Shown: positions 49,131-61,845 of the stretch, one piece after another
Layout: each line of letters begins with the position of its first letter
How positions within the stretch are numbered: position 1 is the stretch's first letter
NCBI GenBank assembly: GCA_951800645.1
Contig: CATOIK010000001.1
Location: 62,001 to 126,000 of the forward strand
Direction of reading: 5' to 3'
DNA length: 64,000 nucleotides
DNA from: an uncultured Eubacteriales bacterium
GTDB taxonomy: Bacteria > Bacillota > Clostridia > Lachnospirales > Lachnospiraceae
Translations under genes and position numbers: made by a program
Notes under the pieces: model-generated
The model's database searches: none
What the model was told of the DNA's origin: nothing
Seen by the model: only the letters and a program-made list of their open reading frames with translations

Positions 49131-49180
49131 CTCTCCTCCTTACGCAACTCTCCAAGCACGAATCCGGAAAAGAGACCAGA

Positions 49181-49248
49181 ATGCCTGTTCGTACAGGCAC
49201 GACAGACATTTTCTTCGTTATTTTACCACAAAGTGGCTTTTGTGTATA
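49181..49248 (-). promoter_or_regulatory. promoter and structured leader of the radC-mre-min operon
   Basis: On the minus strand: TATACA (49243-49248), a 17-bp spacer and TAAAAT (49220-49225). The transcript then begins with a stem-loop: TGTCTG and TCGTGC pair with GTACGA and CAGGCA (within 49181-49205). The block from TTTGTGG to GCAT matches about 45 of 52 bases of the element upstream of proA, so it is a repeated unit. Confidence 0.65.
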
Positions 49249-61544: not shown

Positions 61545-61661
61545 TTTTTCTCCTTCCAGACTGAAATATTTCATTCATTATATCGTGATTTCATCACTCA
61601 ATAATTTCGCCGTTCGTCAAGAGTGAGCAAGCTCCCTCTGACTCTCTTACGCTCATTATAT

Positions 61662-61823
61662 CATCTCGACTGCCGTCTCGATGGTTTTCTCGTCAAATGT
61701 CTGTTCGTGCAAGCACGACAGACACTTTCCTCGTTATTATACCATCTCGACTATCGTCTCGATGGTTTTCTCGTCAAATGTCTGTTCGTGCGAGCACGAC
61801 AGACACTTTCCTCGTTATTATAC
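61662..61823 (-). repeat. two tandem 81-bp promoter-hairpin repeats upstream of proA
   Basis: Units 61662-61742 and 61743-61823 differ at only a few bases. Each holds, on the minus strand, TATAAT (61736-61741 and 61817-61822), AACGAGGAAAG, and a hairpin made of TGTCTG, TCGTGC, GCACGA and CAGACA, then a loose dyad ATCGAGAC-N4-GTCGAGAT. A related single copy precedes radC at 49181-49229. The remaining part of the 61545-61978 gap holds a further AT/GC palindromic segment near 61620-61660, an Rpn remnant and a terminator. Confidence 0.85.
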
Positions 61824-61845
61824 CACAAAAGATATTTCATGCAAA
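61817..61845 (-). promoter_or_regulatory. promoter of the proA transcript
   Basis: On the minus strand: TTTGCA (61840-61845), a 17-bp spacer and TATAAT (61817-61822). The inner TATAAT copies (61736-61741, 61655-61660) lack a good -35. Confidence 0.65.

Follow-up and report, generated by a model that had tools for sequence, protein, structure and literature searches.

The repeat upstream of proA and radC in the window, i.e., the whole stretch of 64,000 nucleotides analyzed here, is very likely a mobile element which duplicates its target. It is probably a non-autonomous DNA element of about 70–73 bp without terminal inverted repeats, which enters TG[G/A]TA[T/C]AAT sequences in a fixed orientation and produces a target duplication of 9–10 bp.

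Organization of the Element Upstream of proA and radC

The gene names proA and radC were taken over from a sequence-only reading of this DNA, which had described two tandem promoter-plus-hairpin units upstream of the former and one unit upstream of the latter. This arrangement was recovered. On the minus strand, the 17-base pattern TATAATAACGAGGAAAG occurs exactly at 61822-61806 and 61741-61725 upstream of proA, and in a version with three changes at 49225-49209 upstream of radC, so that three matches in the window compare with 0.08 expected. Matches to TGTCTGTCGTGC, a shorter pattern, are less telling (six at two mismatches or fewer, 2.3 expected). The radC copy (49180..49232, minus strand) is truncated, consisting of TAAAAT and hairpin 1 without hairpin 2. 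Its described likeness to the other copies amounts to 87% over 53 bases, and its stem changes GTACG and CAGGCA do form the G-U pairs that had been pointed out.

A full unit consists, on the minus strand, of TGGTATAAT, AACGAGGAAAG, hairpin 1, CATTTGACGAG, a linker, CCATC GA GAC nnnn GTC GA GA and again TGGTATAAT. Besides the copies elsewhere in the genome, two features are absent from the sequence-only reading: hairpin 2, which lies downstream of hairpin 1 in every full unit, and a different module (type 2, about 61654-61577), with which the proA array ends. The following features are all located on the minus strand. The left target copy TGGTATAAT (61817..61825) is, judging from the duplications at other sites, the extended -10 box of the native promoter. 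It is followed by the 72-nt body of unit 1 (AACGAGG...GTCGAGA; 61745..61816) with hairpin 1 at about 61814-61770 and hairpin 2 at about 61766-61741, the 3′ arm of which extends into the next target copy. Units 1 and 2 repeat with a period of 81 bp and have the junction TGGTATAAT (61736..61744) in common. The body of unit 2 (61664..61735) is joined through TGATATAAT (61655..61663) to the type-2 module (GAGCGTAAGAGAGTCAGAGGGAGCTTGCTC...AAATCACGATATAAT; 61577..61654), another repeat with a common junction and six matches in the genome.

Insertion Sites and Target Duplication

Three sites with an empty ortholog were identified: L016, the end of a TetR gene, and the second copy in L013. At the first site the ortholog in G018 is empty and reads ATTATGGTTTAAAAAGAAAGG (empty site ATTATGGTTTAA), and the filled site in G000, the window's own genome (contig-level, 83% complete), reads ATTATGGTATAAT, element, ATGGTTTAACAGAAAGG (sequence after the element ATGGTTTAAC). 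None of 12 orthologs from the same genus carries the element, and G012 has another repeat at the exact spot. At the end of the TetR gene, both strands of 30 orthologous loci were read, and one locus, from a Parablautia genome, is filled; 20 of the 29 unfilled loci (a reading of the plus strand only had covered 18) have ATTATGGGGCA[A/G]T. The three known filled loci of this type (L076, L096, L110) have ATGGG[G/A]CAAT on the left, and on the right ATGGGGCAGT in two cases and ATGAGGCAGC in one. The second copy in L013 lies at a site which is empty in G018. It was the only one of 10 joined sites which aligned across the junction with any of four relatives, the other nine, including proA and radC, being either not alignable at the junction or without a match. 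A search with joined flanks among the loci in hand gave no empty site. Furthermore, TGGCGCAAT is present on either side of the element in L105 (CsoR site).

The left and right 9-mers match at 6.95 of 9 bases on average, compared with 6.54 after permutation within genomes (0 of 5000 permutations as high). This comparison covered 62 of 86 single insertions, from genomes with at least three each, and kept several out-of-register rows (e.g., L070, L250, L254-L256). The two target copies often differ at 1–3 positions. The duplicated target has a length of 9–10 bp and the consensus TG[G/A]TA[T/C]AAT of an extended -10 box. Since the empty sites and the matching flanks show this duplication, TATAAT is mostly target DNA and not part of the element. 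The suggestion of a mobile promoter element is thus borne out for mobility, by the many near-identical copies, the three empty orthologs and the target duplication, and it has largely to be given up for TATAAT as a part of the unit.

At L016 the left flank shows TATAAT in place of the TTTAAA of the ortholog. For this site it is therefore possible that the core is shorter and TATAAT belongs to the element. A general core-only model, in which ATGG is common and TATAAT is brought along by the element, fits L016 and was rejected due to the native-like CAAT or CGCAAT on the left at L096, L110 and L105.

Promoter-Like Targets

The left flanks follow T[A/G]TG[G/A]TA[T/C]AAT. A TTGACA-like hexamer (at least 4 of 6 bases) at a spacing of 16–18 was found in 44 of 101 left flanks, compared with a mean of 13 and a maximum of 22 in 200 shuffles and with 6–19 at eleven other spacings; as the flanks had been picked by the pattern TGnTAnnAT, only the part upstream of TG counts as a test. 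In many cases the site thus resembles an ordinary promoter of the extended -10 type. Copies at gene ends (L016, L096, L105), two of which (L096, L105) have no good -10 box, indicate that the target sequence can be enough even without promoter activity.

Through the duplication of the -10 box, the native -35 region and the left -10 box would be left intact and the gene would keep its promoter. The insertion would lengthen the mRNA leader, which would then open with hairpin 1, and the right -10 box may serve as a second promoter. This way, the element could invade a promoter and leave it functional, and gut bacteria would gain a route to new leaders and tandem promoters.

Distribution of Copies and Their Relation to Genes

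Searches of the genome and of related Lachnospiraceae, proposed in the sequence-only reading, both gave further copies. In G000, 20 matches were obtained with a 184-bp query and 24 with the 89-bp unit, and several of these copies are 97–100% identical in differing surroundings. The same DNA search matched four of 40 relatives, three of the 23 other species of the same genus and one of 16 from other families of the order; in one of the four, the matches span hairpin 1 only and lie within another repeat (G001). With a strict pattern, 60 copies were counted in named genomes, distributed over 52 stretches, mostly of uncultured Lachnospiraceae and also of Parablautia, Petralouisia, Acetatifactor, Fimimorpha and a few others, and no match was obtained in viral contigs.

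A covariance model based on 57 copies matched 68 of 299 genomes of the family (about one genome per genus, 298 genera sampled) at a cut-off of E 0.001; its E-values are rough, and the weakest of the 68 may be chance matches. In a class-wide sample, three of 291 genomes matched at E 0.0001, one of them being G000.

The next open reading frame (ORF) is co-directional for 129 of the 155 copies which have a downstream ORF (G000, the 52 loci and 101 model matches), and the upstream ORF is divergent in just 40 of 158, both by a crude ORF call under which 31 of 173 copies fall within ORFs of at least 120 amino acids, many of these probably spurious. The two proportions should be alike if orientation played no role, and by this crude count the expected position of the copies upstream of genes is borne out. 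In G000 alone, the next ORF is co-directional for 17 of 19 such copies. The count used 101 of 115 model matches; the 14 left out are L206 and L208 (repeats of L105 and L076), all three copies of L266, and further copies in L227, L269, L272, L286, L289, L291 and L297.

Single loci show further arrangements. In L014 (3962-4045) a copy that has lost one base and carries a C-to-T change is in frame with the downstream gene and may now encode an N-terminal extension. In L231 (1501-1800) a copy lies upstream of a COG2827 RNA (RF02938) and a gene presumably encoding a GIY-YIG protein as judged by eye; this link is a single case. A nearly identical copy is located behind the same gene, seemingly encoding a protein with a tRNA-binding domain (by eye), in four genera (L232, L292, L294, L295), which suggests transfer of the whole region. 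In two genera (L211, L218) the same gene has a copy at its end, where the protein sequence DSKNIMAKQ runs into the element. Finally, in some relatives (G270, G176, G195 and others) the fold adjoins terminator-like T tracts and not -10 boxes; the same two-hairpin fold near such tracts was seen in other genera in L219, L223, L224, L227, L259-L265, L267-L270 and L286-L290.

Conserved Fold and Covariation

The element forms two hairpins. Hairpin 1 has a GCTTGC loop and tandem G.A pairs at its foot, and hairpin 2 a tandem G.A internal loop; the tandem G.A motif CGAG/CGAG is invariant or nearly so at both places. The covariation predicted for the stems is strong. In 57 distinct copies, 94.1% of the pair cells hold standard pairs, and changes on both sides occur in 154 cells compared with 50.8 in shuffles. 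Two weak measures on the same copies gave 10 pairs with both-side changes (7.7 shuffled, 25 of 500 as high) and 31 further pair types (27.9 shuffled, 34 of 500 as high). Among 104 distinct wider copies, the alignment of which was fitted to the model and is hence biased towards it, 23 of 24 pairs show both-side changes (19.4 shuffled), in 569 cells compared with 171, and the signal is lost when the pairing partner is slid.

Possible Selection on RNA or on Single-Stranded DNA

The fold could belong to a structured cis-regulatory RNA leader, which would begin at the -10 box and control or stabilize the mRNA, mobility being secondary. The co-directional genes, the strong covariation, the tandem G.A pairs and GCTTGC loops, and a fold z-score of -6.2 as RNA (-4.1 as DNA) are in line with this. 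G-U pairs also exceed A-C combinations over all pairs, with 71:25 in the close copies and 143:88 in the wider ones. However, much of the excess comes from one nearly constant G-U pair, and after removal of three foot pairs including this one the ratio is 62:35 in the wider copies and 18:17 in the 57 closest copies. The view that the G-U changes are a mark of selection on RNA finds backing in the sum of all pairs, and hardly any in the close copies without these three pairs.

The foot of hairpin 1 also argues against an RNA leader. Its pairs covary in 48 GAGC-type rows (columns 9-60: C-G 28, A-U 19, G-C 1), and the covarying bases are found no more than about 7 nt downstream of the -10 box. With the usual spacing of 6–7 nt between -10 box and start, this is upstream of the expected start or at it. 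An RNA from the element's own promoter would miss most of this foot strand, so that either a read-through RNA or single-stranded DNA is what folds. In addition, no common theme was noticed among the downstream genes when their translations were judged by eye, and for some copies at gene ends (L096, L105) a good -10 box is lacking. On these grounds, a cis-regulatory leader as the primary role seems rather unlikely.

Foot covariation and G-U counts are weak evidence against selection on RNA and do not prove its absence. The chances that the fold is selected mainly as DNA rather than as RNA appear about even, and action as single-stranded DNA during transposition is the favored reading. The GCTTGC loop, a stable RNA tetraloop, and the G-U excess leave room for a role as RNA.

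Possible Modes of Mobilization

Neither a mobilizing enzyme nor an autonomous copy was found. The few orphan right ends in the scanned loci have a degenerate copy or a contig end as neighbor, and none lies behind a gene. The enzyme would probably recognize the element as a folded single strand. In hairpin 2, CCA is complementary to the TGG of the right target copy, and this pairing may be a part of recognition. Tentatively, and with less than even confidence, the element can be regarded as a new class without terminal inverted repeats, widespread in the family, in which the enzyme would read the folded strand with its two tandem-G.A hairpins and short internal target complement, insert the element at the extended -10 box and keep the promoter, so that the mRNA would begin with the element.

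The target duplication of 9–10 bp, the small size and the lack of an own ORF would also suit a miniature inverted-repeat transposable element (MITE) of a conventional DDE transposase, the inverted repeats of which have decayed beyond recognition. This seems unlikely, as no terminal inverted repeat was detected in five subfamily sequences (p 0.35–0.97) despite a well-conserved interior, and as the orientation is fixed relative to the target and the two-hairpin constraint is strong.

Imperfect hairpins near both ends, a strand fixed relative to the target, and Y1_Tnp in eight of 12 other element-bearing genomes would fit a single-strand element of the IS200/IS605 or REP/RAYT type, moved by a Y1 HUH transposase. 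However, a target duplication as seen here is not expected from Y1 HUH chemistry. Moreover, Y1_Tnp was not found in G000 (83% complete) and is present in only four of 12 genomes having at least five copies. Among the 299 genomes it is not associated with the element, being about as frequent in carriers (40 of 68) as in the remaining genomes (134 of 231; odds ratio 1.03). Taken together, this makes the model most improbable. An IS200/IS605-type insertion with an element ending in TATAAT was ruled out by the empty site of L016, where the sequence on the right is native, and also by the duplications at L096/L110 and L105. An IS110 DEDD transposase gave five clear and two weak matches in the 12 genomes with at least five copies, and none in the other five; it was set aside due to this patchy occurrence and since target duplication is not expected of IS110.

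Relation to Known Elements

REP/BIME elements and IS200/IS605 derivatives have imperfect hairpins and a strand-specific insertion beside a short motif, as has the element described here. They insert without target duplication, whereas the present element duplicates 9–10 bp and lacks an association with Y1_Tnp. Bacterial MITEs like Correia, RUP and ERIC are characterized in passages of two accounts (PMC10969869; PMC2229807) as small, ORF-less, mostly intergenic and target-duplicating, and may carry or make promoters. The present element is likewise small, without ORF, mostly intergenic and target-duplicating, but differs in the lack of terminal inverted repeats, the extended -10 target, the fixed orientation and the two tandem-G.A hairpins.

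The Clostridiales-1 RNA (RF01699), listed in a passage of Weinberg 2010 for Clostridiales and human gut, resembles the element in a GCUUGC-loop hairpin and in its occurrence in gut Clostridiales. It differs in being a 166-nt model, the match of which here spans two different modules and reached 25.5 bits in a 301-base search, below the gathering score of 48. In 26 loci carrying copies or relatives, no Clostridiales-1 RNA was found at the gathering threshold; the only Rfam matches to reach it were a COG2827 RNA and two tRNAs, all located next to the elements, and the element itself reached no threshold. A description of this element was not found in the literature searched, which took in few subscription papers. 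With its fold in 68 of 298 sampled genera, no Rfam threshold reached and no enzyme assigned, the element offers a direct way into a seemingly undescribed mobility system.

Related Modules and Mixed Arrays

Spread by template switching or recombination at the short TGGTATAAT homology would need no dedicated enzyme. It would agree with the same junction being used by the element (type 1) and by modules of types 2 and 3, which build mixed arrays, and with left and right junctions that can vary inside the 9-mer. The precise ends of most copies and the spread over 68 of 298 genera speak against it and render it distinctly improbable; movement by a dedicated enzyme remains the preferred reading.

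The type-2 module, represented by positions 61577-61654 of the window and by L058-L062, contains a GCTTGC hairpin of its own as well as a hairpin with GTGATGAAATCAC, and is joined to type 1 at a common TATAAT in L022, L023 and L027. The type-3 module was found at L083:7246, L091:3570, L109:4014 and in L127 (minus strand). Its own ATTATACC can pair with the target GGTATAAT, and it occurs both mixed with type 1 and in tandem, with a period of 85 bp in L083.
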